From Candidatus Aegiribacteria sp. (GTDB taxonomy: Bacteria > Fermentibacterota > Fermentibacteria > Fermentibacterales > JCC-6): 60,345 nucleotides of DNA. Both the position numbers and the translations under genes were made by a program. Where the stretch lies: positions 1-60,345 of the forward strand of contig JAIOQY010000128.1 in assembly GCA_021108435.1 (NCBI GenBank), given 5' to 3'. Below, one piece after another: positions 15,948 to 41,017 of this stretch. Positions within the stretch are counted from its first letter, which is position 1. Every line of letters begins with the position of its first letter. A model generated the notes under the pieces. It had not been told where the DNA came from, searched no databases, and worked only from the letters and a program-made list of their open reading frames with translations.

Positions 15948-16825
15948 TAGAGCAGTTCTGTCAGGATCTTCTCCATGGAAGAAAGTTTTCTGAACATACG
16001 ATAAGAGCATATAGAGCCGATATGTGCCGCTATTACAAATGGTGCAGCTCAGACGATATTATTGAAAGTTTCAATACACTGAATCTTCGAAGTTATCTTC
16101 GTCATGAAGCCGGTCGTGATCTTGATTCAAAGACTCTTGTAAGAGAGGTGTCATCTCTCCGTACATTCGGTGGTTGGCTTCAGGAAACAGATAGAATATC
16201 CGGCAATCCGGCAAAATTGCTTACCATGCCAAGGGTATCAGGAAAACTTCCCGGATTTCTCAGCATTTCAGAAGTAATTCAGATTATAAACAGCTACGAT
16301 GAAAGCACTGCTCTCGGCAAGCGAAACAGGGCGATAGTCGAACTACTTTACGGAGCTGGTCTCCGGGCTTCTGAAACGGTTACACTGAAGACAGGCGATA
16401 TGGATCTGGAGCAGAAGCAGGTCAGGGTGGTTGGAAAGGGAAACAGGGAAAGAATTGTCCCTGTACCCGGATTAACCTGCATTTCCCTTGAATCCTGGCT
16501 GTCAGCAAGAAGTGAGCTTATTAGTAATTATAATCCCGATCCGGGTACTTTCTTTGTCAGCATTCGAGGCAGAAAGCTTGACCCGAGAGATATCCGCCGT
16601 ATTGTTGCAGTCGGAGTCAGAAGTGCTGCGAGGGCGGCAGGAGCAACACCACATACGTTTCGTCACAGCTTCGCAACCCACCTGCTCGATAACGGGGCAG
16701 ACCTGAGAGCTGTGCAGGAGATGCTTGGGCATGCCAGTCTCTCAACAACGCAGGTTTATACTCATCTGACAAGGGAAAGACTGAAAGAAGCATATAGAAA
16801 AGCACATCCCAGGGGGGAAGAGTGA
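15914..16825 (+). CDS. Tyrosine recombinase XerC/XerD family
   Basis: Resolves chromosome dimers at dif. From GTG 15914 the protein is 303 aa, matching the Xer length, with the SAM-like N-terminal domain and the catalytic set: Arg in GAGLRASE, Lys in VVGKGNRERIVP, HTFRHSFATHLL (His, Arg), LGHASLSTTQVYTHL (His and nucleophilic Tyr). A longer frame from 15872 overlaps topA further and adds nothing family-like. The topA-xer order is common for chromosomal Xer genes, which argues against a phage integrase. Confidence 0.9.
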   Translation: MSQLQKENIELIEQFCQDLLHGRKFSEHTIRAYRADMCRYYKWCSSDDIIESFNTLNLRSYLRHEAGRDLDSKTLVREVSSLRTFGGWLQETDRISGNPAKLLTMPRVSGKLPGFLSISEVIQIINSYDESTALGKRNRAIVELLYGAGLRASETVTLKTGDMDLEQKQVRVVGKGNRERIVPVPGLTCISLESWLSARSELISNYNPDPGTFFVSIRGRKLDPRDIRRIVAVGVRSAARAAGATPHTFRHSFATHLLDNGADLRAVQEMLGHASLSTTQVYTHLTRERLKEAYRKAHPRGEE

Positions 16826-28399: not shown

Positions 28400-29316
28400 A
28401 AGATTTGTCTCTGGTTGTCAGGATTCCAAACTGGCTCGGAGACATTGTTATGGCGCTTCCGGCGCTGTCTTCGCTGGTGAATAAATATCCGGACACGACC
28501 TTCTGGAGCCGACCGGGAAACTCAGGATTGCTTCCGGTATTCTTTGGTACACGGGATATTCACGTTGAGAACAGGCTCCCTCGAATGAAATTCGACAGTC
28601 TTCTTCTGATGACGGATTCCTTCAGAACAGCTCTTCAGGGATATCTATCCGGAATATCTCAGAGAACAGGTTACTCAACAGACATGAGGAGACTTCTTCT
28701 TACGCATGCCATAAAGCCTCCTGATGACCGTAATCATCATCATTCTCTTGATTACATCGGACTATCTGATGCTATGGGTGCTCATCTCAAAGCTGATATT
28801 CCGGCTCCAAGAACAGAACCTGCGTATGAATCTCATGTTGCTTTCTTCGCAGGAGCAAAATACGGCAGCGCGAAAAGATGGCCGGGTTTTGCTGAACTTG
28901 CGTTGATGCTTCATAAAGAAACAGGACTGCCATCGGTGTTTTACGGTACTCCGGAAGAGGAATGTTTACTCAACGAGATAGCATCAAAGATACCGATGTC
29001 CTCTGCGTTAACAGATCTGGATATTGAAACTCTGGTCTCATATCTCCTTTCCGCGAGAATCGCGATAGGAAACGATTCCGGAGGAGTTCACCTCTCTGCG
29101 GCGGTTGGAACACCTACAGTTACGATATTTGGCTCTACATCGCCGATATGGACAGCTCCTCTTGGCAGAAATACAGAGGTAATGGCTTCAGAAAGATCCT
29201 GTTCTCCATGCTTCAAGCGTAAATGTCCTCATGGTAGACCACTCTGTCTTGATGATATATCTCCGGAGGAAGTCTTGAGTGCATGCGTTCGATTACTTAA
29301 GAGCGGAGACAACTGA
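28396..29316 (+). CDS. waaF: ADP-heptose:LPS heptosyltransferase (WaaF-like)
   Basis: Adds heptose to the LPS inner core from ADP-heptose. The 306-aa GT9 protein has VRIPNWLGDIVMALPAL at the N-terminus, KYGSAKRWPGFAELA near 155, the donor-site IGNDSGGVHLSAAVGTPTVT, FGSTSPIWTAPLG, and CSPCFKRKCPHGRPLCLDDI, a WaaF-type Cys-rich block. gmhB, which makes the heptose precursor, is elsewhere in the window. The start is GTG 28396, coupled to the previous gene. Confidence 0.88.
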   Translation: MKDLSLVVRIPNWLGDIVMALPALSSLVNKYPDTTFWSRPGNSGLLPVFFGTRDIHVENRLPRMKFDSLLLMTDSFRTALQGYLSGISQRTGYSTDMRRLLLTHAIKPPDDRNHHHSLDYIGLSDAMGAHLKADIPAPRTEPAYESHVAFFAGAKYGSAKRWPGFAELALMLHKETGLPSVFYGTPEEECLLNEIASKIPMSSALTDLDIETLVSYLLSARIAIGNDSGGVHLSAAVGTPTVTIFGSTSPIWTAPLGRNTEVMASERSCSPCFKRKCPHGRPLCLDDISPEEVLSACVRLLKSGDN

Positions 29317-29317
29317 T

Positions 29318-32002
29318 ATGTCAAAAGTATTGCTTGTAGACTGCTACAATATTCTCTATAGAGGACACTTCGCGATGCACAGAAATCCTCTCAGGGCACC
29401 GGATGGAACGAATACAAGCGGTCTTTATCATCTTGTCAGTGAAATACTGGATATGACAGAAAACCGTTCAGCGGATATTACGGTTGCAGTATTCGATTAC
29501 CCTGCACCAAGTTTCAGAAAGAAAATATATCCTGAATACAAATCCAACCGCCCTCCAATGCCTGAGGAGCTTATACTCCAGTCGAACCTTGCACGTAAGC
29601 TGATACCGGCTCTGGGTATTCCACTATTAGAGGAGGAGGGGCTGGAGGCTGATGACATCATAGCATCCCTGACAGCGCAGGCGCTGAAGCGGGGCGATAC
29701 CGTTGAAATACTCTCCACTGACAAGGATCTACTTCAACTTCTCGCAGATGGGGCAAAAATGCTCAGACCCGGTAGATCCGGGACTCCCATATCCATAATA
29801 CAAAGGGAGGATGTAGAAAATGTAATTGGTGTCTCTCGCGATAAGGTTGTTGATTATCTTTCTCTAACAGGTGATTCTTCGGATAATATTCCAGGGGCGA
29901 AAGGAATAGGTCCGAAATCAGCTCAAAAGCTTCTCAGGCAATTCGGCAGTGTTGATGACATATACGAAAATATCGATGATGTACTACCGGAATCTGTGCG
30001 AAACAAGCTCCAGAAAAGCATAGAATCGGTGTATCTCAGCCGAAAACTGATTTCTCTCCAACCCGCGAAGGACATAAACGCTTCAATTGACGATCTTTCA
30101 ATGAATCGTCCTGATGAAAGTGTGGCAGTCGAGATCCTGACAAAACTCGGCATGAACAGTATTCTCAGAAAATTGCATATACAGCCGGCTGGAGATCTTT
30201 TCGGCGTGCAGATTTCAAATAATCCCTGTTCCTGGTGTACAACACACATCATTAATTCGGTTGAAGAACTTGAAAGATTTGATTTTGATAATTCACATAG
30301 CTCTCTTTTAGCACTGGATACAGAATCGACATCAGTACGGCCATTTGACGCCGATATCGTTGGAATATCCTTTGCTTCATCAAAAGATACCGCTGTCTAT
30401 ATTCCTCTGGCTGGTCCTGATTCTCTCCCTGTTCCAGATATTGTCCGGATACTGAAAAACAGGCTTGAGGGAAAGAGCATAGCAGCACAGAACGGCAAGT
30501 ACGACATCCACATACTTGATTCCATAGGACTTGATATAAAGAAGATAAAGAGTGATCCCATGATTGCGGACTACCTTATTATGCCCGAAAGGCAGTCTCA
30601 TTCACTATCGGAATTATCGTATATCTGGTTGAACAAACCTATGATGAATTACAGCACAGTACTCGGCAATGCTGAAACACTTGCCGATGTCGATACAGGA
30701 AAAGTTGCTGAATACTGCGGCTGTGATTCCGCGACGGCATTTCAGCTTGCCGGAATACTCATGGATGAACTTGAAAAGGATCCGCAACTGCTCAAATTAT
30801 ATGACACACTGGAGCTGCCTCTGGTAACAGTGCTGGCGAGAATGGAAAAGCGCGGCGTTGCAATCGATCTGGAATCGCTGAATGAACTCAGGGACGAGTT
30901 CTCAACAAGAATCAGAATACTGGAAAACAACGCTTCAGAAATAGTTGGTTACCCGATGAATCTGAGCAGTCCGGCACAGGTATCAGCGGTTCTGTTTGAT
31001 ACTCTTGGACTTCCTCCTGTGAAAAAGACCAGGAAAGGAGCAAACTCTTCCAGCATAGATGTTCTGGAAAAACTCAGGGGTAAACATGAATTCGTTGAAA
31101 CAGTTATTGAGCATAGAGAACTCTCTAAATTGCTGAATACCTATATAGGAAAACTTCCTCTTTTTATCTCAGACAGGGATGGGCTTGTACATACCAGCTT
31201 CAGTCAGACAGTTACTGCTACAGGGCGTCTCAGTTCCAGCAATCCGAACCTGCAGAATATTCCTGTCAGGACAAGTCAAGGCAGAAAAGTCAGAAAATGC
31301 TTCATACCCGGAATAGAAGGGAATTACTTCATAACAGCCGATTATTCACAGATCGAGCTGCGTGTTCTTGCACATCTTGCAGGTCCTGGAAATCTCAGGG
31401 ATGCTTACAGCAAGAATCTGGACATTCACAGTTCCACAGCGCTGGCGCTGTTTGGAGATGACTCCCCTGAACACAGAAGAAAAGCTAAAGAAGTTAATTT
31501 CTCAATTCTGTACGGTATAAGCCCATGGGGCCTGAGTAACAGATTGAACATAAGCAGGGGAGAGGCTTCCGGAATAATAAACAGGTATCTTGCCACTTAT
31601 CCTGAACTTGAATTCTTCTTCAAAAAATGTATTGCAGATGCTGAAGCAACAGGCGAAACAAGAACTATTCTCGGAAGAAAGAGGAACTTCAAGGAATTTG
31701 TATCCGCAAAGGGTTCTGCTCGCAATACAATGGAGCGCATGGTAGTCAACACAATTGTACAGGGGTCAGCTGCTGACATAATAAAAATTGCAATGCTTCG
31801 GGTGGATGAAAGATTGAAGGACATTCCTTATGCAGGTCTTGTTCTTCAGGTTCACGATGAACTCGTGGCTACTGCTCCGGAAGACAGGGTAGAGGAAATA
31901 ACCGCTGTTATCAGGAAAGAAATGGAATCCGCGTATCTGCTTGAAGTTCCTCTGATCGTTGAAACGGGGAAAGGCAGAAACTGGCTCGAAGCCGGCCACT
32001 AA
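29318..32002 (+). CDS. polA: DNA polymerase I
   Basis: 894 aa with all three domains. The 5'-3' exonuclease (1-290) shows FDYPAPSFRKKIYPEYKSNR and LTGDSSDNIPGAKGIGPKSA. The 3'-5' exonuclease has an intact proofreading set: DTEST, NGKYD and the YCGCD of Exo III. The polymerase has DYSQIELRVLAHLAG, KEVNFSILYGI and QVHDE. The start is ATG 29318; the longer frame from 29279 lies within waaF. The stop at 32000-32002 abuts a hairpin repeat that opens the accessory island, and a damaged copy of its last 55 bp lies 5.9 kb downstream. Confidence 0.97.
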   Translation: MSKVLLVDCYNILYRGHFAMHRNPLRAPDGTNTSGLYHLVSEILDMTENRSADITVAVFDYPAPSFRKKIYPEYKSNRPPMPEELILQSNLARKLIPALGIPLLEEEGLEADDIIASLTAQALKRGDTVEILSTDKDLLQLLADGAKMLRPGRSGTPISIIQREDVENVIGVSRDKVVDYLSLTGDSSDNIPGAKGIGPKSAQKLLRQFGSVDDIYENIDDVLPESVRNKLQKSIESVYLSRKLISLQPAKDINASIDDLSMNRPDESVAVEILTKLGMNSILRKLHIQPAGDLFGVQISNNPCSWCTTHIINSVEELERFDFDNSHSSLLALDTESTSVRPFDADIVGISFASSKDTAVYIPLAGPDSLPVPDIVRILKNRLEGKSIAAQNGKYDIHILDSIGLDIKKIKSDPMIADYLIMPERQSHSLSELSYIWLNKPMMNYSTVLGNAETLADVDTGKVAEYCGCDSATAFQLAGILMDELEKDPQLLKLYDTLELPLVTVLARMEKRGVAIDLESLNELRDEFSTRIRILENNASEIVGYPMNLSSPAQVSAVLFDTLGLPPVKKTRKGANSSSIDVLEKLRGKHEFVETVIEHRELSKLLNTYIGKLPLFISDRDGLVHTSFSQTVTATGRLSSSNPNLQNIPVRTSQGRKVRKCFIPGIEGNYFITADYSQIELRVLAHLAGPGNLRDAYSKNLDIHSSTALALFGDDSPEHRRKAKEVNFSILYGISPWGLSNRLNISRGEASGIINRYLATYPELEFFFKKCIADAEATGETRTILGRKRNFKEFVSAKGSARNTMERMVVNTIVQGSAADIIKIAMLRVDERLKDIPYAGLVLQVHDELVATAPEDRVEEITAVIRKEMESAYLLEVPLIVETGKGRNWLEAGH

Positions 32003-32058
32003 TTAAAAAGTGACAGGCACTATTTAATTGGTACCCAGTGGTGACTGCTTTTCGAACT
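32001..32058. repeat. Island repeat, copy A (hairpin after polA)
   Basis: Starts with a 12-bp stem (AATTAAAAAGTG, loop ACAGG, CACTATTTAATT; one mismatch), continues GGTACCCAGTGGTGACTGC and ends TTCGAACT. The same ordered blocks recur at 33998 and, in part, at 35929, 37953 and 39963, always in this orientation. It could serve as the polA terminator, but the spread of related copies marks it as a dispersed element. Confidence 0.75.
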
Positions 32059-32082
32059 GCAGTACCGATCCTCATATGAATC

Positions 32083-33804
32083 TTATCTCAAACGGCATAG
32101 CCTTGTCGTCTCACAGATCTCACCAGACTGTATCCTGCATATGTACAACCCGGAAGCAACGTGTTCGCCATTCTGGCTCCTGCCATCCCAGACACAGGAG
32201 TGCTGTCCGGCTCCAAGCTCAGATTCAACCAGGGAGCAGATAATCCTGCCGGAAAGGTCATATACTTGAATTGAAGTGTATCCCGGCTCAGAAAGCTCAA
32301 ATGAGATGGATGCGGAGGAGTAGAAGGGATTCGGGCTTGTACATAGTCTAAGTCTTATAGTGGGCTCTGGTCCTATCCCTGTACCTGTAACGGTAAAGCT
32401 GATGGTATCAGCGGCAAAGGCGACGCTACCATCGAAGGCTGTCACGATCAGTTCGTTGGAGCCTACTTCTGCGAAGAGATCATCCCGGTATGTGTACTTC
32501 AGACCGGTTCCGAAGGCATACAGGTTCCAGTCCATGCCGGCAATGTAAACAACTCCGTCTGTGATGGCCGGGCTGGAGAAGATAAAATCAGAGCCGGTTG
32601 CGAAGGACCATATTTCTTCCCCGGTGTCACAATCCAAAGCATTAACTTTCGCAGTCTCCGGCCAATTCAGGATATCTCCATAGAAAACTATGCCATCAGC
32701 AATGCCGGAAGAGCCATGTTGATGACCTGGTACGGACCAGATTGTGCTTCCGTTGGATGCATCAAGACAGTGATAGGTATCAACCTGATCCGCGAAATAA
32801 AGTCTGCCGTCATGGTATGCAGGAGTTGCTGCTATGTACATACTTGGAGAAATATCTATTTCCCATATAGTAATCCCTGTTATTGCGTCAATTGCCCGTG
32901 TTTTACCGTCCTCTCCACTTATATAGATCGTACTGTCCACAACAACCGGAGATGAGTCCCAGTAGCCCTGATAACTATCGGTATTCTCCCACATGATCGA
33001 GCCAGTATTGGCATCCAAGGCATACAAAGGGGTTTCATTATTGTTATAACATGTGGGGATAAACAACATATCGTTCCAGACCGTCATGCAGCTCGCCATA
33101 CCTCCAGAAAGTGCAGCACACCATGTTTCCGCGCCTGTTTCTGCATCAAAGCAATAGGCAAAGGATTCCTCATAGTTATAGTCTTCATTACGCCCAGCAT
33201 ACACATTGCCGTCAACCACTGCAGGTGTGCTTCCACCGTGATCAGCAGCACTGGTAGCCCAGATCCTCTCACCGGTCAATGCATCCAGGCACCACAGTGA
33301 GTCGCTGGCAGTGTACAGGTAGCCGTCCTTAACTGTAACAGCATCATCAGTCATACCAGTGTGGTATTTCCATATCAGTTCGCCAGTAGCAGCATCCAGG
33401 GCATACAGGGAATCAGTACCCATGTTGGAAGGATAGTACACAATTCCATCCACGATCACCGGTGTTGGGAACTCGTGGACATCTCCAGTTACAGGCGCAG
33501 TCCAGAGTATTGTGTTGTCCGTCGGGGCTGGTGACTCTGAAAAACCAGTGTGTAGATCATTAGCCATGTAGGTGTACCAGTCTGTGTTGAGCCTGGGTAT
33601 CAGTACAACAGGCTGTCCGTTGAGTGAGTAGTGGACCGAGTCTGCTTTCTCGTTTTCGTTCTCTACAATAGCCCTGACGGTAAGCCAGTCCCCATTGTAG
33701 GTTTCACCATCCACTGGCTCTGTGATTGTAAGATTAGTGGCGGAAATTAAAATTGCTGCTGCAAGGATAGTTTCAATCATCAACAGTCTTTCATTCACTG
33801 GCAC
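32083..33804 (-). CDS. Secreted PQQ-type beta-propeller protein with C-terminal sorting domain
   Basis: 573 aa. A signal segment (MIETILAAAILISATN) is followed by an Ig-like stretch, then propeller repeats of the PQQ/outer-membrane-assembly type (YALDAATGELIWKYHTG; CLDALTGERIWA; RAIDAITGITIWEIDI). The last 85 aa is a FlgD/T9SS type A sorting domain: SPNPF, VYDLSGRII, WDGRSQNGEHVASGLYIC. That tag predicts cell-surface or extracellular delivery in FCB-type bacteria. GTG 33804 or ATG 33780 may be the start. Binding partner and any enzymatic role are unknown. It is the first gene of the island and lies on the strand opposite to polA. Confidence 0.82.
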   Translation of the reverse strand: MPVNERLLMIETILAAAILISATNLTITEPVDGETYNGDWLTVRAIVENENEKADSVHYSLNGQPVVLIPRLNTDWYTYMANDLHTGFSESPAPTDNTILWTAPVTGDVHEFPTPVIVDGIVYYPSNMGTDSLYALDAATGELIWKYHTGMTDDAVTVKDGYLYTASDSLWCLDALTGERIWATSAADHGGSTPAVVDGNVYAGRNEDYNYEESFAYCFDAETGAETWCAALSGGMASCMTVWNDMLFIPTCYNNNETPLYALDANTGSIMWENTDSYQGYWDSSPVVVDSTIYISGEDGKTRAIDAITGITIWEIDISPSMYIAATPAYHDGRLYFADQVDTYHCLDASNGSTIWSVPGHQHGSSGIADGIVFYGDILNWPETAKVNALDCDTGEEIWSFATGSDFIFSSPAITDGVVYIAGMDWNLYAFGTGLKYTYRDDLFAEVGSNELIVTAFDGSVAFAADTISFTVTGTGIGPEPTIRLRLCTSPNPFYSSASISFELSEPGYTSIQVYDLSGRIICSLVESELGAGQHSCVWDGRSQNGEHVASGLYICRIQSGEICETTRLCRLR

Positions 33805-33896
33805 TACAGTGAATTAATGAGTACGAATTCTTCAATAATGATGTGTACGATTTGATGATATCAATGATCATCAATGGTGTCAATAATACAGGCTTG

Positions 33897-33921
33897 GGGA
33901 CGGAGGAAGCACCTCCGTCCC
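33897..33921. repeat. Perfect 10-bp hairpin
   Basis: GGGACGGAGG (33897-33906), loop AAGCA, CCTCCGTCCC (33912-33921). It lies five bases before a tRNA 3'-end fragment. There is no T-run after it, so an intrinsic terminator is unlikely; a recombination-site or repeat-element structure is possible. Confidence 0.8.
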
Positions 33922-33925
33922 GACG

Positions 33926-33950
33926 TGGTACCCCTGACGGGATTCGAACC
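33926..33950 (-). other. tRNA 3'-end fragment (T-loop to CCA)
   Basis: The minus strand reads GGTTCGAATCCCGTC followed by AGGGGTACCA: a T-loop, the 3' half of its stem, the 3' acceptor strand and CCA. The 5' half of the T-stem no longer pairs (CATTGG against CCCGTC) and no anticodon arm follows. Such 3' tRNA ends are typical attachment-site remnants of tRNA-targeting elements, but the fragment is short. Confidence 0.55.
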
Positions 33951-33997
33951 AATGCTTATGGCTCCGGAATTGGAATTCTTTCGAGTAAGCTTCGTTT

Positions 33998-34056
33998 GTC
34001 ACTTTTATTAGTGGGTGGCACTGTTTTGGCACCCCGTGGTGGACAAATCTCGAACT
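33998..34056. repeat. Island repeat, copy B
   Basis: The fullest copy beside A: GTCACTTTTATT, the stem-loop AGTG-GGTGG-CACT, then TTTTGGCACCCCGTGGTGGAC and TCGAACT. It aligns block for block with copy A in the same orientation. It lies downstream of the tRNA fragment and upstream of the beta-helix gene. Confidence 0.75.
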
Positions 34057-34166
34057 CGGTTATCTATATGACCACATGATCCTGAAATTCTATTTAAATC
34101 TAGGAAACAATTCCTCCTTGAATTATCCATGCAATATCATATTGTTAAATAGGAAAGGTGGTATTC

Positions 34167-34241
34167 ATGAACGTTCTTCTCATAATTTCTACCTTGATCT
34201 TCACTATTCCAGCGGCGTCCCAATTGGCACCAACAGCGTAA
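34167..34241 (+). pseudogene. Truncated signal-peptide ORF (24 aa)
   Basis: ATG 34167, preceded by AGGAAAGGTGG, encodes MNVLLIISTLIFTIPAASQL plus four residues and then TAA. This is a complete signal peptide with nothing after it. It looks like the 5' end of a secreted-protein gene whose body was lost, fitting the recombined nature of the island. A genuine short secreted peptide cannot be excluded. Confidence 0.4.
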
Positions 34242-34272
34242 AACAATTATGCTTAGTTGGAGGTTTGATATA

Positions 34273-35727
34273 ATGTTTTATCTTCTATTTATTCTGACAA
34301 CAGTTATCCATTCAACAATCTATTTTGTTCCAGATGATTACCCAACTATCCAGCAGGCCATAGAAGAATCGGTGGATGGTGATTCTATCCTGGTCCTTCC
34401 AGGAGAATATTCGGGATTTAACTACCAGGGGAAGAACATTCATATTGAGAGTACCGCCGGCCCGGATTCAACTGTGATAAACACTTCGATATATATAGTA
34501 AGTAATGAAGGCAGGGAAGCTGTCCTGAAAGGATTTCAGATCAGCACCTTCGTCGACATGGACACATATGCCCTTGTAATAAATGGTGCCAGCCCGTCGA
34601 TTCTGGAGAATGTATTCAAGGATTATTACTGGGACATTAGTGGCGCGATGAATCAGTTGAAGAGAGGCATGATAGTTTCCCTGAACGAATCCAGCGCGCT
34701 TATCCAGGGCAACATCTTTACCAATAATTACTTTTACTGGGACTCGTATCCGGATTCACCCCGGGCGGGCGATATGTGGAGCAGCAAGTTCCTGGGCATG
34801 TGCGTTTACATAGGAAATCAGGGGAGTTCGAACTGTGCAGAGCTGCGCAATAATATTTTCAATGACAACACTGCTGTAACATACGGTGTCTATATGTTAG
34901 GCCTGTGCGTTTACACCAACGGCAGTACAATACTCGAGAACAACCTCTTTTTCAACAATGGCTTCCTCCATGGTCTTTTTGGAAGCTTCTGGTACTGTCG
35001 TGGAAACGCCCTGTGTGCTGATGGCGGTGCTGAAGTGACTGTCCGTAATTGTACATTTCATCATAACTACAATTACGAGGATTCGGGCTACATGACAGCT
35101 CTTGCGGCTATGGGAGGAGCTCAGCTGAATATATCCAGCAGTATAATCTGGGCAAACGATATATACGATAGCCCCATTATACAGTACAGTGACGTGGAAG
35201 GCGGCTGGCCGGGCACGGGTAACATTGACGAAGACCCGTGTTACTTTTCCGGTCCCCCAGATTATTACCTTAGTCCGAGTTCGCCCTGCGTTGACGCCGG
35301 TGACACTGACCCTACCTTCAACGATTCGGAGGACCCTGATAATCCAGGTTATGCCCTCTGGCCCTCACTGGGTGGTCTCAGGAATGACATGGGTACCTAC
35401 GGTGGACCTGGAGCCATCTACTGGAGCAATCCGGGAACCGGCATAGACCGGCAACCGTCCGGTGATCAGTCTACTGATCCATTCCTACTAAGCGTTTGTC
35501 CGAACCCGTGTTTCCGTTCCCCTGTCATTACCTTTGAACTGCTCGACTCTTCCATCGTCAAAATCTTGGTGTTCGATGTGACTGGCCGTATGATATACCA
35601 GGAGGTGAACTACTATTCATCAGGCAGAAATCATATGTATCCCGGCAATATGCGACCGGGTATTTACTATGCTAGAATAACCACGGGAGAATTCACAATC
35701 TCTCGATCATTCGTGGTACTGGAGTAG
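34273..35727 (+). CDS. Secreted right-handed beta-helix protein with C-terminal sorting domain
   Basis: 484 aa from ATG 34273 (GGAGG nine bases upstream). Signal peptide MFYLLFILTTVIHSTIYF, then VPDDYPTIQQAIEESVDGD, the classic start of pectate-lyase-like/NosD beta-helix proteins. Successive coils contain ENNLFFNNG, NIFNDNTAV and NCTFHHNYN. A proline-rich linker leads to a T9SS-type tail (CPNPCFRSP, VFDVTGRMIY, MRPGIYYARITTGE). Likely a surface glycan-binding or glycan-cleaving protein; no catalytic residues can be assigned. It is the only plus-strand gene of the island. Confidence 0.82.
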   Translation: MFYLLFILTTVIHSTIYFVPDDYPTIQQAIEESVDGDSILVLPGEYSGFNYQGKNIHIESTAGPDSTVINTSIYIVSNEGREAVLKGFQISTFVDMDTYALVINGASPSILENVFKDYYWDISGAMNQLKRGMIVSLNESSALIQGNIFTNNYFYWDSYPDSPRAGDMWSSKFLGMCVYIGNQGSSNCAELRNNIFNDNTAVTYGVYMLGLCVYTNGSTILENNLFFNNGFLHGLFGSFWYCRGNALCADGGAEVTVRNCTFHHNYNYEDSGYMTALAAMGGAQLNISSSIIWANDIYDSPIIQYSDVEGGWPGTGNIDEDPCYFSGPPDYYLSPSSPCVDAGDTDPTFNDSEDPDNPGYALWPSLGGLRNDMGTYGGPGAIYWSNPGTGIDRQPSGDQSTDPFLLSVCPNPCFRSPVITFELLDSSIVKILVFDVTGRMIYQEVNYYSSGRNHMYPGNMRPGIYYARITTGEFTISRSFVVLE

Positions 35728-35928
35728 ACGGATTAACATTAGAGCACAATAGTCATAGAGACTCGAAGAACTGATTTGCTGATCCTGTTTTATTCAACCT
35801 AAAAATTTGTATTATTTAACACTTGTAGAACGATTCATAAAAACCTATGCGTATTCTACACATCAAAGTCAAAGTTTTTCCAGCGATGAATAACAGGTTC
35901 CGCTTTTGTTTCCTCAATGCCTTTTTCG

Positions 35929-35959
35929 TTGGTACACCGTAGTGGACACTTTTCGAACT
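35929..35959. repeat. Island repeat, copy C (partial)
   Basis: Retains TTGGTACACCGTAGTGGACA and TTCGAACT, the right half of the repeat, but lacks the AGTG...CACT stem-loop. It lies 49 bp from the stop codon of the minus-strand fic gene, in the 280-bp gap after the beta-helix gene. That gap otherwise shows only a 7-bp inverted pair (TGTAGAA/TTCTACA). Confidence 0.6.
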
Positions 35960-36007
35960 GAGCTAAGTGTAAGCGGAGAGGTTCAAAATATCCAGAATGA
36001 ATGAAAG

Positions 36008-37528
36008 CTACTTCACTAGTAATCGTCTGCTTGACAACTCCTTTTGCACAATATTCTCGATTGCCTCAATCTCACTCTTCTTGAGAAAATTGAAGTGAGA
36101 TTTATGCTTACCTGCAGATAATCTTCCATTGTTATTCAGGCAAAGCTTGATAAGTAGATCAAGCTTCTGGGCAGGCATATCAATCACTTCCTGTATAGCC
36201 TTTCTTGCTCTATCGTAGTCGACGAGAAAATCCAATTCAATAACAAGCTCGTGATCTACCGTAAATTTGATGAATTCAAAGAGTGTTTCAGCTTGTACAG
36301 TCAAATCTAAGTATCTGTAGAAGTTTCCTGTATTTCCCTTTACTGTCATTTCTCCCAGTTCATCCAGATCGAATTTCAGCAGGGAAAGCAGAGGTCGAGA
36401 AAAAACATCAAGAGAATAATCATACAATTCAGGCTTTTTCAACATCGCTGCTGAGATCGGAAACATCAATCCCTCTGGAACTGCATTCTTAAGAAATAGG
36501 ATATTGTGTATAAGAAACCGATGGATTCTGCCATTCCCATCCTCAAAAGGATGTATACATACAAACCCAAAAGCTACTATAGCGGCGTGTATAACTGGAG
36601 GTAGCGAGACTGCATTTTCCAGCATACTCGAATGTGTGCCTATCAAGCCCTTCATTAGGGATTCAACATCCTCAGGCTTTGGGCAGACATAATGAATTCT
36701 CTGATCCCTGAAGGATATCATTTCTCCGATGTAGTTCTGATTCTTTCTGAAATCCGAATCCCTGAACCGCTCATCAACAATTCTGTTCTGTAATCCGATC
36801 AAATCTTCTTTGTTGCAGAAGTCCCTCTTTGTCGCCAATTCAAGGGATGAAATAAACCTCTCTGTTCTGGATGCGCTTGGCTTCAGATGCTCGATCTCAA
36901 AAGAGGATTTTGTTTCCTTACTATATAGGTAACTAAGTGCACGCTTGATGAGTTCAGGAGGATAGGACTTGATAAGTTCATCACACTGTTGATGAATATT
37001 AATACCCTCCATAGATATAAGTTTAGCTGTTTTTCTGACAACTGGGCAGAACTCCCTGTTACCCAGCAGATTGTTCACCACACGCTGTCGCTTCATTTTT
37101 ATTCCCGGTTTAGCTACATAGTGTTTCTCGGACTCAAGAAGTTTGATATAGTTCCCTTGAGAAACGTCATTTACAGGTAAAGTCTGACCTGTAAGGAATT
37201 CATATAGAAACCAGATTTTACGAGTGTATTTCCCCGTTGGTTTTGACTCAATCCATAATGCGATCTCGTACGCACTCACAACGGCAAACAAGGCAGATAG
37301 TATTCCCAGATTGATACCGTCATACTTCAGCGCAAACTCAAGATGATCCCCGATAGTATCCCCAGGCCACCGAACAGAGGGAAAGATTGTTTTCTCCTGC
37401 CCATCCTTTACAATTGTAGTTTTGGATGTTCCCACAGAACTGATTGCTGAAGTGTGCCAGTGCGGCATTACTCGCAGTTGATGTCTCTTGATAAGGAAGT
37501 CGTATCCTGCAGCTCTCTCTGTTTTCAT
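36008..37528 (-). CDS. Fic-family protein (putative AMP transferase)
   Basis: Fic enzymes transfer AMP or related groups from nucleotides onto protein hydroxyls. The core motif HPFEDGNGRIHR is intact, with the catalytic His, the Mg-binding Asp/Glu position and the phosphate-binding Arg. Upstream, KSSFEIEHLKPS matches the N-terminal class II inhibitory helix (S-x3-E), with the inhibitory Glu present but His where Gly/Asn is usual. ATG 37528, eight bases after GAGG, gives 506 aa; GTG 37546 is an alternative. It has no signal peptide, unlike its island neighbours. No antitoxin-like partner gene is adjacent; the toxin or regulatory role is unknown. Confidence 0.85.
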   Translation of the reverse strand: MKTERAAGYDFLIKRHQLRVMPHWHTSAISSVGTSKTTIVKDGQEKTIFPSVRWPGDTIGDHLEFALKYDGINLGILSALFAVVSAYEIALWIESKPTGKYTRKIWFLYEFLTGQTLPVNDVSQGNYIKLLESEKHYVAKPGIKMKRQRVVNNLLGNREFCPVVRKTAKLISMEGINIHQQCDELIKSYPPELIKRALSYLYSKETKSSFEIEHLKPSASRTERFISSLELATKRDFCNKEDLIGLQNRIVDERFRDSDFRKNQNYIGEMISFRDQRIHYVCPKPEDVESLMKGLIGTHSSMLENAVSLPPVIHAAIVAFGFVCIHPFEDGNGRIHRFLIHNILFLKNAVPEGLMFPISAAMLKKPELYDYSLDVFSRPLLSLLKFDLDELGEMTVKGNTGNFYRYLDLTVQAETLFEFIKFTVDHELVIELDFLVDYDRARKAIQEVIDMPAQKLDLLIKLCLNNNGRLSAGKHKSHFNFLKKSEIEAIENIVQKELSSRRLLVK

Positions 37529-37600
37529 TTCAAGAACCTCATTCACTCACAAAATAGTTACACATTCTATATTTTTGTTACTTTTCAATAGCTCTCTAAT

Positions 37601-37628
37601 ATTATAGTTATATTTTGTGCATCCGCAA
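37601..37628 (-). promoter_or_regulatory. Predicted promoter of the fic gene
   Basis: On the minus strand, TTGCGG (37628-37623), a 16-bp spacer and a perfect TATAAT (37606-37601). The start of transcription would fall about 65 nt before the chosen ATG. The surrounding sequence is clearly AT-rich. Confidence 0.5.
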
Positions 37629-37817
37629 GGATATTGCTTATGCTACTCTTTCTGTTACAATCGAAGGTAAAACAGAAAAGATTGTTATAGAAACTAGAAT
37701 ATTATTAGAAATCAGACCCAAGTGCATTTTTTCATTACACATCTAGCGTACTCTATGAAGATACTTTCCGAACTCTATTTAGAAGGAGTTCTACTGCTCT
37801 GTAGTGGTTGTTCTACT

Positions 37818-37867
37818 TGGTACCCCAAACAGGATTCGAACTTGAAGCCTGCGGATTAGAAGTTCAC
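37818..37867 (-). pseudogene. tRNA-Arg(TCT) 3'-half remnant
   Basis: The minus strand shows an anticodon arm GTGAA-CTTCTAA-TCCGC (four of five pairs, anticodon TCT), a variable region, a T-loop TTCGAAT whose stem has mismatches, then GGGGTACCA. The D-arm and 5' acceptor are missing. It directly adjoins the polA 3'-end copy, so two unrelated core-gene ends lie fused within about 110 bp. Confidence 0.6.
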
Positions 37868-37875
37868 TGATATTA

Positions 37876-37930
37876 CCTCTGCTTGTTGAAACGGGTAAAG
37901 GCAGAAACTGGCTCGAAGCCGCCACTGATT
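37876..37930 (+). pseudogene. Copy of the polA 3' end
   Basis: Matches the last 56 bp of polA (31949-32004) with four substitutions and one deleted G. It reads PLLVETGKGRNWLEA against PLIVETGKGRNWLEA in the intact gene. Two of three changes within codons are silent or conservative, so the copy looks like it came from a related polA gene rather than by random decay. The deletion removes the stop codon. It bounds the island on the far side from polA. Confidence 0.85.
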
Positions 37931-37952
37931 TTAATAGTGAGAAGTACTACAT

Positions 37953-37986
37953 GTCACTTTTAACAGTGGGTGGCACTGTTCGAACT
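37953..37986. repeat. Island repeat, copy D (internal deletion)
   Basis: GTCACTTTTAAC, stem-loop AGTG-GGTGG-CACT, then directly GTTCGAACT; the middle GGTACCCC...GTGGAC block is absent. It ends eight bases from the stop codon of the FG-GAP gene. It follows the polA 3'-end copy just as copy A follows the intact polA. Confidence 0.7.
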
Positions 37987-37993
37987 CTGGAAG

Positions 37994-39823
37994 CTACTTT
38001 ATAACCACGAAGCGCTGTGTTGCCGCGAAGTCTCCAGAGGTCATGCGGCAGAAGTAGATACCAGGAGATAAATCCCCAAGAAGAACATCGTGATATCCTG
38101 ATGAATACTCATCTCCATGAATCTCGCTTACAAGTCGACCTGGCAGGTCGAAGATAGAGATTGAGACATAAGCAGATTCGGTAAGCCCGAACCTGATGAT
38201 CGGTGAACCTGCTGTTGGATTAGGTGCTATGTGAAAAAGCTCAGTTCCCTGAGGAGTCGGTTCAGAAGTATCTCCGATGCCGAGACGATTCCAGGTAATG
38301 GTGACGTCGTTAAGTATGGGAGTGTTATATGGATTGGATGTCTCGAGTATTGCCCTGTACTGAACGTATGTGTCACCAACGTTCAAGATACCATCAAGAC
38401 TACAAGGAGTTGTAAGTGTGTCAGACCAGGCACCCATATTTGTGTGATCGTCCGATGCTCTGACCTGGAATAAAACAGAGGTTCCCAGGGGTGTCTGTGA
38501 GCTCCAATCCAGATACACCCATTCAGGAATGTATCCCCCTTCATCAAGAACAGTGGATTCGAGTGAACCCTCAGAGGAATACCCGTTAAGATCCCACCAG
38601 GTGATGTCCGAAGGAAAACTACCTCCACCGAGTATGTCCATTTCACCGTCGCCGTCTATGTCCACAGGGTAGGCGTAACGAGCTCCGTTGAAATATTCAT
38701 CAACGGTATGCTCGGTCCAGACAGTACCCGAGCCGTCTATATTCTCCCACCAGGTTATGTCATCAGCCACTCCGGCAGCGCCTAGTACGTCCATGTCGCC
38801 GTCATCGTCCATATCTTCTGAGTAGACCGAATAGGCTCCGTCGAAATCTTCATCAATGGTATGCACGTTCCAGGATGTACCCGACCCGTTGATATTCTCC
38901 CACCACGTGATGTCGTCATCAATAATGGCAGTGCCGAGTACGTCCATATCACCGTCACCGTCTATGTCCTCCGAGTAGGCGGAAATGGCACCATCGAAAT
39001 TTCCATCTATAGTAATTTCGTTCCAGGATGTACCCGAGCCGTTGATATTCTCCCACCAGATGATATCGTCAGCTTCAAAAGCGGCTCCGATTACGTCCAT
39101 ATCACCGTCACCGTCTATATCCTCCGAGTAGGCGGAATTAGGGCCACCGACTATGAAGTCTATGTTATGCTTTGTCCAGTTTGTGCCCGATCCGTCTGTG
39201 TTTTCCCACCAGGCTATTTCGTTTGCAGTTTGAGAAGCGCTGAGTACGTCCATATCACCGTCACTGTCGATATCATCAGAGTAGACTGAAATGGGATAAA
39301 GGAAGTCTCCAACGGTATGTTTCGTCCAGTATGTTCCAAAACCGTCGATGTTTTCCCACCAGATGATTTCATAGGAAAGATAAGATACAGTAAGGATGTC
39401 CATATCACCGTCATCATCTATATCCTCTGAGTATATGGAAGTTGCATCTACGGTTTCCTCGCAGAGGGTATGTTCAGTCCAGGATGTTCCAGAGCCGTCG
39501 ACATTCTCCCACCATTTGGCTTCGTATTCACTTGTTTCAGTACCGAGTATGTCCATGTCACCGTCACCGTCAATATCTTCTGAGAAGAGTGAGCTTACAT
39601 TATCCCCGTCAACGGTATGATCAATAACATTCTGGAGCGATAAAGAGCCTGGAAAGCTTTCCCAGTAAATATCGGTGTAGAAATCGAAGGTGTTACTCCA
39701 ATCGATAACAGGTCCGTATCCATACATATATGGACCGCCCGACCAGTCGGTCTGGGTTGCGGAGTCGGCATATGTATTAATGAAGAAACCTGAGATTACT
39801 AAAAGAAGAATACTTCTATTCAT
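37994..39823 (-). CDS. Secreted FG-GAP/VCBS repeat protein with C-terminal sorting domain
   Basis: 609 aa from ATG 39823, preceded by GGAGGT. Signal peptide MNRSILLLVISGFFINTYA, then seven tandem units of about 50 aa, each with a calcium-loop motif such as EDIDGDGDMDVLG followed by ITWWENINGSGTSW. Next come an Ig-like segment and a T9SS-type tail (IAPNPTAGSP, IFDLPGRLVSE, LSPGIYFCRMTSGDF). Repeats form an integrin-like beta-propeller, so adhesion or surface binding is likely. Neighbouring units are very similar at DNA level, making copy-number change plausible. Confidence 0.85.
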   Translation of the reverse strand: MNRSILLLVISGFFINTYADSATQTDWSGGPYMYGYGPVIDWSNTFDFYTDIYWESFPGSLSLQNVIDHTVDGDNVSSLFSEDIDGDGDMDILGTETSEYEAKWWENVDGSGTSWTEHTLCEETVDATSIYSEDIDDDGDMDILTVSYLSYEIIWWENIDGFGTYWTKHTVGDFLYPISVYSDDIDSDGDMDVLSASQTANEIAWWENTDGSGTNWTKHNIDFIVGGPNSAYSEDIDGDGDMDVIGAAFEADDIIWWENINGSGTSWNEITIDGNFDGAISAYSEDIDGDGDMDVLGTAIIDDDITWWENINGSGTSWNVHTIDEDFDGAYSVYSEDMDDDGDMDVLGAAGVADDITWWENIDGSGTVWTEHTVDEYFNGARYAYPVDIDGDGEMDILGGGSFPSDITWWDLNGYSSEGSLESTVLDEGGYIPEWVYLDWSSQTPLGTSVLFQVRASDDHTNMGAWSDTLTTPCSLDGILNVGDTYVQYRAILETSNPYNTPILNDVTITWNRLGIGDTSEPTPQGTELFHIAPNPTAGSPIIRFGLTESAYVSISIFDLPGRLVSEIHGDEYSSGYHDVLLGDLSPGIYFCRMTSGDFAATQRFVVIK

Positions 39824-39845
39824 GGGAAACCTCCTATTATTGTCA

Positions 39846-39875
39846 ATAATCATTGATTTACTTAATCGATGTCAA
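39846..39875 (-). promoter_or_regulatory. Predicted promoter of the FG-GAP gene
   Basis: On the minus strand, a perfect TTGACA (39875-39870), an 18-bp spacer and GATTAT (39851-39846). Transcription would start about 17 nt before the ATG, leaving just room for the GGAGGT site. Confidence 0.4.
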
Positions 39876-39962
39876 CGGGGCATGACGAGTTATTCCTTGA
39901 AATAAGAATAGCTGATTATTGAATAAGCTCTCCGACGGGTTATCATTCGGGAAGCTTTGCTT

Positions 39963-39986
39963 GTCGTTTTATTGGTGGGTGGCACC
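39963..39986. repeat. Island repeat, copy F (left half)
   Basis: GTCGTTTTATT followed by stem-loop GGTG-GGTGG-CACC. Compared with copies B and D, both stem sides changed together (AGTG/CACT to GGTG/CACC), which keeps pairing. It ends five bases from the stop codon of the exported ferredoxin gene and marks the right edge of the island. Confidence 0.65.
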
Positions 39987-39990
39987 GGGA

Positions 39991-40491
39991 TTATTTGATG
40001 AGTGTTATTTCGCCCAGGATATTTTCGCCAAGCATTACGCAGTAATTGCCCGAGGGGTTTCCTGAAAGGTTAAGAATAGCGTAACCGTTGGGGTCAGTTA
40101 CGGTTGTGGCAACTAATCTTCCTGACAGATCCAGCACGCAAATATCTTCTCCCGGTTGAGCACTTTCAATGTAGAAGGCGCCTTGTGTCGGATTTGGGCC
40201 ATACATCGGTGAAAGGGATGATTCCGATTCTTCGATTCCTTCATACCATACTATGTAAATAGCACCTCTGGGACAATGATTTGCACAGACACCGCAACCG
40301 TTACAGAGTTCAGGATCTATGACGGCATTGCCGCCATACATGGAGAGTGCGCCTTCTTCGCACCAGCTGATACATATACCGCAGCCGTTGCAGATGACAG
40401 GATCAACCTGATATATCCATTTTCCCGCAAGCACAACTGACACGATCAACAGTATCAGAAGCGCGTATTTAATGTACTTAGGAACTGACAT
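39991..40491 (-). CDS. Membrane-exported 2[4Fe-4S] ferredoxin with C-terminal sorting-like tail
   Basis: 166 aa from ATG 40491 (GGAGAACTG before it). An N-terminal hydrophobic segment (YALLILLIVSVVLAG) is a signal or anchor. Two full cluster motifs follow, CNGCGICISWC and CNGCGVCANHCP. The last 60 aa resemble a short sorting domain (MYGPNPTQGAFYIE, VLDLSGRLVATTV, SGNYCVMLG). An iron-sulfur electron carrier outside the cytoplasm is unusual; electron transfer at the envelope is inferred. The gene overlaps the trmH-like gene upstream by 14 bases, so it belongs to that operon rather than the island. Confidence 0.82.
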   Translation of the reverse strand: MSVPKYIKYALLILLIVSVVLAGKWIYQVDPVICNGCGICISWCEEGALSMYGGNAVIDPELCNGCGVCANHCPRGAIYIVWYEGIEESESSLSPMYGPNPTQGAFYIESAQPGEDICVLDLSGRLVATTVTDPNGYAILNLSGNPSGNYCVMLGENILGEITLIK

Positions 40492-41017
40492 CAGTTCTCC
40501 TTCTCTGAATTTCAGACGCAATAATAGCAGCAGTACTTGAGACATTTATGCATTTTCTGGTTCCCGACTGGGGATAATATATTCGCAAATCCGCGATATT
40601 CGCAACATTCTGATTCACTCCGTCTGCTTCATTTCCAAACAGAAATGCTGAGGAAAGATCGAATTCAGCTTCCCAGAAAGGCATCGCGTCGGGTGTATTT
40701 TCAACCGCTATAAGCATACGGCCGGTTCCCTTTACCCAATTTGCAGCTTCTTCAATATCTTTGAAATATCTCCAGGGAATTGAAGCAAAGGTTCCCCTCG
40801 AGGTATGACTGAGTTTCCTGTTTCCCGGTCTGCAGCATGTGCCTGTCAGAAAAACAGCAGCAGGTGATATTGCCTCGACAGATCTGAAAACTGAACCTAC
40901 ATTGAAAGCGCTTCTGAAATTATCCAGGATAAAAATGGGCATTCCCCTTGAACTGTGAAGAGATTCTGAGTAAACTTGAGGTATCATGATATTAGGAAAA
41001 TTGCTCTTTTCGATCAC
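40478..41017 (-). CDS. TrmH-family RNA 2'-O-methyltransferase (SpoU type)
   Basis: 179 aa. The three SPOUT knot motifs are visible: LDNFRSAFNVGSVFRSVEA, FLFGNEADGVN, and INVSSTAAIIASEIQRR. Such enzymes methylate ribose in tRNA or rRNA using SAM; the exact site is unknown. GTG 41017, nine bases after AGGAGG, is preferred over ATG 40987. With this start its first 32 bp overlap the divergent comEC start. Confidence 0.85.
   Translation of the reverse strand: MIEKSNFPNIMIPQVYSESLHSSRGMPIFILDNFRSAFNVGSVFRSVEAISPAAVFLTGTCCRPGNRKLSHTSRGTFASIPWRYFKDIEEAANWVKGTGRMLIAVENTPDAMPFWEAEFDLSSAFLFGNEADGVNQNVANIADLRIYYPQSGTRKCINVSSTAAIIASEIQRRRTDVSS

Follow-up and report, generated by a model that had tools for sequence, protein, structure and literature searches.

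Single-gene cassettes with tRNA-Arg-like borders beside polA in Candidatus Aegiribacteria sp.: a probable large serine integrase system

Introduction

How does a bacterium come to carry, directly behind polA, a row of unrelated genes for surface proteins and a Fic protein that are separated by the same short repeats? The question is raised by contig JAIOQY010000128.1 of Candidatus Aegiribacteria sp. (Fermentibacterota; assembly GCA_021108435.1, 2.9 Mb in 218 contigs), the whole of which, 60,345 nucleotides, is called the window in the following (contig C128 of genome G000). A first-pass annotation made from the letters alone had described five copies of one ordered repeat, consisting of a stem-loop followed by GGTACCCC-GTGGTGGAC and TTCGAAC, and had been reminded of gene-cassette arrays. 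This observation is confirmed in part, and the cassette interpretation is partly supported: it is upheld, but the site is another one and so is the enzyme, which is predicted. For comparison, genomes coded G001 upward were used, all of which are fragmented assemblies. We consider the array, with a probability of roughly 0.8, to be an accreted chain of mobile cassettes that have tRNA-Arg-mimicking attP-type half-sites and would be driven by a large serine integrase, as judged from sequence comparison.

Site A bounds mobile cassettes

The GGTACCCC-GTGGTGGAC-TTCGAAC part of the repeat, if taken on the minus strand, is a 29-bp site, here called site A (GTTCKAAAAGCGTCCACCACGGGGTACCA), which is like the 3' end of a tRNA-Arg (T-loop plus CCA). 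The best evidence that it is a border comes from the Fic cassette, which recurs in another species (contig C156 of G006). The homology begins at GGGGTACCA and ends right after the GGTGTACCA of site A, both ends break at GG(G/T)GTACCA, and the outer flanks are unrelated. The cassette is 98.5% identical between the two genomes, as compared to about 85% for the syntenic polA flank of the same pair, and it starts at the CCA end of a tRNA-Arg(UCU) half. A second shared unit of 0.86 kb (98%; G000:C28 and G014:C307) likewise stops immediately beyond an A site; on the upstream side its border is less sharp.

The cargo at the polA locus is exchanged as a whole. The four genomes closest to that of the window have repeats and cargo between polA and the ferredoxin/SpoU genes, and the window's cargo proteins found no match among the cargo of G004, G006 and G008 at the polA-ferredoxin locus, although the ferredoxin and SpoU genes flanking the replaced cargo are 74–92% identical. 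It is the complete replacement of cargo at one locus among close relatives, together with one cassette that has moved between species as an exact-ended unit, that bears out the idea of a cassette array. Neighbouring A sites (100 bp–6 kb apart) have the same orientation in 26 of 26 cases, and of the gene ends within 80 bp of an A site, 23 are codirectional with it and 5 opposite. Judged from these comparisons, site A bounds real mobile cassettes with exact ends, their cargo turns over, and tRNA-Arg 3' ends are the joints.

The cargo of the window indeed consists of proteins with sorting tails of the type IX secretion system (T9SS) and of Fic, as had been noted before. Taken together, 49 cassette proteins matched 53 Pfam families, the commonest being Por_Secre_tail (8); GNAT, AbiEii, GmrSD and amidohydrolase domains are examples of others. 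An odd cargo is a 254-aa array open reading frame of G012:C101 (L307:8189-8953), which matches RNA polymerase Rpb2 domain 6 (7e-8).

tRNA-Arg ends as joints and the 5-bp shift

The intact tRNA-Arg genes (CCG, UCU, CCU, ACG) end in ...GTTCGAATCC..GG.G[TC]ACCA, and the DNA immediately after the CCA of tRNA-Arg(CCG) differs among G009, G011, G012, G003, G005 and G001. Displaced 24-nt copies of the tRNA-Arg(CCG) end (positions 53-76) are found behind cargo genes; they number about eight in G003, and G012 has several. The intact tRNA-Arg(CCG) gene of G012 and of G009 has a 39-bp unit B directly behind it, and then an A site. Such B-A units also occur in a 68-bp tandem, that is, as cargo-less units (sequence of the A-B unit: GTTCTAAAAGCGTCCACCACGGGGTACCAGATTTCAGAGTTTAGAAC).

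Site A differs from the tRNA end in a characteristic way. The exact motif pair GTTC[GTA]AA..GGGGT[AG]CCA was found with a spacing of 8 (n = 23) and of 13 (n = 39) and at none of the other 26 spacings from 3 to 30, a distribution far from what chance would give; part of the two counts reflects how the loci were collected, whereas the absence of other spacings does not. The T-loop-like motif in A thus lies exactly 5 bp further out than in the tRNA: counted from the GG/GT step in GGGGTACCA, GTTCGAA is at about 19-11 in tRNA-Arg and at about 24-16 in A. In the integrase system of Listeria phage A118 the zinc-ribbon motif is at positions 16-24 of attP and 11-19 of attB, which is also a 5-bp shift (PMC3783163). 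Moreover, A and B together form an inverted repeat: in 26 A-B units the zinc-ribbon (ZD) motif is matched in inverted orientation at 8 of 9 positions at offset −1 and at no more than 4 of 9 at other offsets. An imperfect inverted repeat of about 50 bp is also what the attP of large serine integrases consists of.

Two other ideas about these sites were given up. That site A is a decayed tRNA gene was rejected, since the non-tRNA sites keep the exact 28-nt distance from TTCGA to CCA and never have an intermediate one. A repeated "cassette start" (ATGACTCGCGTTCCGCGAG..) was dropped as proof of movement because it has a perfect hairpin inside, also follows tRNA-Ser and may be a repetitive extragenic palindrome (REP).

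A large serine recombinase and the proposed mechanism

The genome encodes a large serine recombinase (LSR) of 522 aa on contig C84 (26356-27924), with the domains Resolvase (PF00239, 4e-26), Recombinase (PF07508, 8e-15) and zinc ribbon (PF13408, 5e-9). The 3' end of its gene overlaps a 24-nt tRNA-Arg copy. About 8 kb beyond this site, the next A- or 24-nt-type site found there is an A site in the same orientation. With a 24-nt site at one end and an A site at the other, the C84 element has the same ends as the cassettes. Genes related to that of the C84 LSR have their ends on intact tRNA-Arg(UCU) in two genomes (G011, G018) and on tRNA-Arg-like sites in four more (G003, G025, G029, G033); for other serine recombinases in the genus the gene end falls on tRNA-Ser and tRNA-Glu. 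We infer that the C84 enzyme recombines the sites of the window. The earlier statement that no recombinase is present is not quite correct for the window either, since it has a XerC-like gene (XerC/XerD-type tyrosine recombinase, 15872-16825), which is presumably housekeeping.

According to the scheme proposed here, each cassette would carry the 29-bp attP-type half-site A behind its usually single gene, and the gene for the large serine integrase would be on an autonomous element bounded in the same manner, namely that on C84. The attP of a circular cassette (A plus P' arm; complete in the A-B unit) would recombine with an attB that is the 3' end of a tRNA-Arg gene or a displaced copy of it. 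Strand exchange would take place inside GGGGTACCA, probably at the GG/GT step, and would yield the product tRNA...GGGGTACCA/cassette...A/old flank, in which the tRNA is regenerated and A forms the far border. Repeated insertion would then give rise to same-orientation arrays, and cassettes lacking an integrase would move in trans. The hairpins of the window would have arrived in the neighbourhood independently or at a later time. Circular intermediates, action in trans and the order of insertion are what we infer beyond the borders themselves.

Several points weigh against this scheme. The LSR lies on a contig other than the window, its link to the window is by site identity, and no LSR was found in several A-bearing genomes (G002, G006–G010, G013), most of which are incomplete. 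The assemblies are all fragmented, with many arrays broken off at these repeats. The symmetry axis of the A-B unit lies 0.5 bp away from the GT centre that was assumed, and no P' arm is clearly recognizable on the cassette next to a solo A site. Finally, tandem arrays need attP x attL-like recombination (hybrid sites), at which serine integrases are normally poor without a directionality factor.

Alternative explanations and the hairpins

Could the array instead have grown by the tandem accretion of islands, through tyrosine integrases that target tRNA genes, as in tycheposons or additive genomic islands, with the serine recombinase as an unrelated passenger? The joints are tRNA 3' ends, the tRNA halves of the window start in the anticodon loop like classic tyrosine-integrase targets, and a 301-aa tyrosine recombinase is encoded in G000:C102. 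However, in the loci examined only LSR genes adjoin A or tRNA-Arg sites and no tyrosine integrase does, and tyrosine recombination gives no reason for the 23/28-nt geometry, so that this explanation has little probability. The first-pass annotation had thought of a linked tyrosine recombinase or a Y1 transposase; a transposase of the latter type does exist in connection with the hairpin, as described below, but no tyrosine recombinase was found beside A in these loci.

Even less probable is the explanation that hairpin and A are both plain REPs, or bacterial interspersed mosaic elements composed of them, lying as extragenic palindromes behind genes, and that the gene differences are ordinary genome flux. 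For the hairpin alone the REP assignment is true.

What had been taken for one ordered repeat are two unrelated repeats that are interleaved, together with displaced tRNA pieces; the recurrence about every 2 kb and the single orientation stand. The hairpin, RGTG-GGTGG-CACY with the core TGTCGTTTTTATTRGTGGGTGGCACTGTT and here named REP1, is present in three copies in the window. The order from hairpin to TTCGAAC is complete only once (33997-34055): the A copy at 35930 is without a hairpin, and the copy at polA has a different one, REP2. A single gene for a Y1-type, REP-associated tyrosine transposase (RAYT) is flanked by inverted REP1 copies in each of G000 (C98), G006 (C6) and G004 (C224), and orthologous RAYT genes elsewhere bear other repeats (REP2 in G008 and G015; AGGGACGGAGGTAATT.. 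in G002, G003 and G017). REP1 is therefore an ordinary RAYT-associated REP and not part of the cassette site, an outcome that the first-pass annotation had itself named as refuting.

Copies of REP1 were counted in G000 (about 40), G006 (42) and G004 (12); many congeneric species had none above control. The copies generally lie 3' of tRNA genes, stop codons and terminators, in a single orientation. A paired change in the stem of one copy had been noted as covariation, which fails genome-wide, where the outer pairs are A/T (11), G/T (18), A/G (5), G/C (5) and others. In the phylum, RAYT genes mostly lie between inverted copies of a REP of their own, the sequence of which varies with the RAYT lineage (L246-L275, L067-L075). 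On contig C172 (L079:5254-8727) two tandem T9SS genes have near-identical 3' ends plus REP1, and close sharing is limited to the C-terminal sorting part and the repeat.

For site A the REP explanation is already contradicted by the exact transfer of the Fic cassette. In addition, no RAYT gene is flanked by A, on which ground A (the repeat X of Table 1) was rejected as the REP of a RAYT, and plain REPs would leave its exact cassette borders, fixed orientation, tRNA identity and 5-bp shift unexplained.

Least probable of all is that A and B are attC sites of a divergent kind on which one of the genome's two genuine IntI integrases (TIGR02249, 402 and 348 bits, cut-off 265) acts, for although single-gene arrays with the site behind the gene and an array-like orientation would fit, the IntI-proximal junctions have canonical boxes (..TAACAATTATTAG.., GTTATAC), different first cassettes and no A; A is absent from every intI locus examined and present in genomes without IntI above the cut-off; the cassette borders are at GGGGTACCA rather than at G^TT of R'; and solo A sites are without an upstream complementary box (5/51 versus 3/51 in the control), their own box being GTTCKAA. 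That the sites are not integron attC, the GTTRRRY boxes being absent, had been seen correctly at the first pass. The two intI genes are at G000:C30 1032-2276 (L376), where the gene overlaps the following tex gene, and at G000:C178 176-1378 (L377). Their attI-side junctions differ between G000, G006 and G015. In G015:C195 (L385:33-1987) a tyrosine recombinase gene lies beside an IS91-type Y2 transposase gene just upstream of the intI array.

The locus and its borders

The features of the array are listed in Table 1. The first-pass annotation had placed the repeat 5–49 bp past the stop codon of four minus-strand genes, which is correct: the distance is 25 bp for the PQQ gene, 49 bp for Fic and about 5 bp or more for the FG-GAP and ferredoxin genes. 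It had overlooked the displaced 3' halves of two tRNA-Arg genes, and also that the polA 3' end together with REP2 is present twice, as a direct duplication that brackets part of the array. On the ferredoxin side of the locus in G006 the same arrangement of REP1, REP2, polA end and tRNA-Arg half is found (C80, 39950-40090; L195). The insertion or duplication at the polA 3' end is old and earlier than the split of the window's species and G006. In G016, G002 and G013 the locus is free of an array and polA abuts SpoU directly. An Rfam scan of the array region gave nothing meaningful.

Table 1. Features of the array between polA and the ferredoxin-like gene (positions in the window).
Feature	Position	Strand	Remarks
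polA	29279..32002	+	conserved left border of the array
polA 3' end	31949..32022	+	original of the direct duplication
REP2 hairpin AGTGACAGGCACT	32009..32021	+	beside polA; REP type flanking the RAYT gene of the relatives G008 and G015
Site A, X1 (GTTCGAAAAGCAGTCACCACTGGGTACCA)	32029..32057	-	closes the PQQ/T9SS cassette; adjoins REP2 and polA
PQQ-type beta-propeller protein with T9SS sorting tail	32083..33804	-	cassette gene
Displaced 3' half of tRNA-Arg(CCG)	33926..33968	-	extends from the anticodon to CCA (91% over positions 34-76); attB-type half-site where the PQQ cassette starts
REP1 copy (TGTCACTTTTATTAGTGGGTGGCACTGTT)	33997..34025	+	
Site A, X2 (GTTCGAGATTTGTCCACCACGGGGTGCCA)	34027..34055	-	then REP1
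Beta-helix protein with T9SS sorting tail	34249..35727	+	cassette gene in opposite orientation
Site A, X3 (GTTCGAAAAGTGTCCACTACGGTGTACCA)	35930..35958	-	end of the Fic cassette; homology to G006:C156 stops right after it
Fic cassette	35930..37826	-	98.5% identity over 1.9 kb to G006:C156 16789-18686, in a different context
Fic protein, 512 aa	36008..37546	-	Pfam Fic 8e-16; PADLOC PDC-S24 (phage-defence candidate) 1e-172
Displaced 3' half of tRNA-Arg(UCU)	37818..37867	-	ending GGGGTACCA; attB-type half-site, start of the Fic cassette
Copy of polA 3' end plus REP2	37876..37949	+	81% identity to the original
REP1 copy	37952..37980	+	
Truncated site A (GTTCGAACA)	~37981..37990	-	fused directly to REP1, behind the FG-GAP/T9SS gene; read from the sequence
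FG-GAP repeat protein with T9SS sorting tail	37994..39853	-	
REP1 copy	39961..39989	+	behind the ferredoxin gene; orthologous copy in G006:C80 and G004:C225
Ferredoxin-like gene	39991..40545	-	conserved right border of the array; 74-83% aa identity in G004/G006

Other tRNA-like site families

The sites next to REP1 served as a test set, as they had not been collected by means of site A. The rule of 28 versus 23 nt also holds in REP1-adjacent families other than Arg. In the Glu-type sites the end is the exact last 14 nt of tRNA-Glu(UUC), at 28 rather than 23 nt, and another REP1-adjacent family matches tRNA-Asp at 10 of 12 positions. For the non-Arg 28-nt sites the generic pattern GTTYNAR..GNNCCA gave no peak; its fixed G excludes the Glu family, which makes the result uninformative.

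Arrays with 28-nt tRNA-like sites next to REP1 are found at L083 (C182), L176 (G006:C5), L076 (C54), L085 (C18) and L098 (C214). Among these families one is tRNA-Glu(UUC)-ended, one is tRNA-Asp-like and two are without a matching tRNA here. The Glu-type arrays (L083:2649-3576, L176:5769-17123) consist of units of about 1 kb with different genes and near-identical ends of about 100 bp.

We lean slightly towards the view that there may be a general serine-integrase counterpart of the integron in the Fermentibacterota, in which tRNA genes would be the landing platforms and single-gene cassettes would bear attP half-sites that mimic tRNA, with parallel Arg, Glu, Asp and other systems and a few helper elements acting in trans.

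Relation to known systems and significance

With large serine integrase elements of the phage A118/LI type the proposed system shares the enzyme composed of Resolvase, Recombinase and zinc-ribbon domains, the abutment of the gene end on an att site, the attP motif 5 bp further out than in attB and the inverted-repeat attP. It differs from them in that most units consist of one cargo gene without integrase and form long arrays at several tRNA-Arg genes. The staphylococcal and enterococcal cassette chromosomes (SCC/ECC) also combine large serine recombinases with a variable cargo, are bounded by att sites on either side and insert at the 3' end of a conserved gene (PMC6222049). However, the targets here are tRNA-Arg ends and the locus beside polA rather than rlmH, there is one LSR instead of CcrA plus CcrB, and the units are 0.07–5 kb in size with about one gene, whereas SCC/ECC are large multi-gene islands, for example 32 kb in one ECC (PMC6222049). 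Tycheposons and additive flexible genomic islands share the repeats of tRNA 3' ends between variable cargo; tycheposons carry tyrosine recombinases (PMC10872708), whereas the site geometry and the neighbours found here indicate serine recombinases. The relation to REP/RAYT systems (PMC2817692, PMC8266576) concerns the hairpin only, REP1 flanking and tracking a Y1 transposase gene, and not the cassette borders. A literature search for mobile elements or integrons in Fermentibacter found nothing relevant.

Integrons are the textbook way for bacteria to collect single genes one by one. The array shares with them the co-oriented single-gene cassettes, each with a site behind its gene, an anchor locus and diverse cargo, but it has no link to IntI, no attC structure and a different border, and a tRNA gene takes the place of attI. 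In the way it works it is like an integron array, its sites have the geometry known from large serine integrases, and target, unit size and enzyme set it apart from SCC/ECC and tycheposons.

There is thus, in a little-studied phylum, an apparently independent route to an integron-like architecture, via large serine integrases and tRNA 3' ends, by which surface proteins and phage-defence candidates would be distributed between species. The model predicts a specific enzyme, two sites and a crossover core. If it is true, these bacteria would be a source of naturally orthogonal attP/attB pairs.

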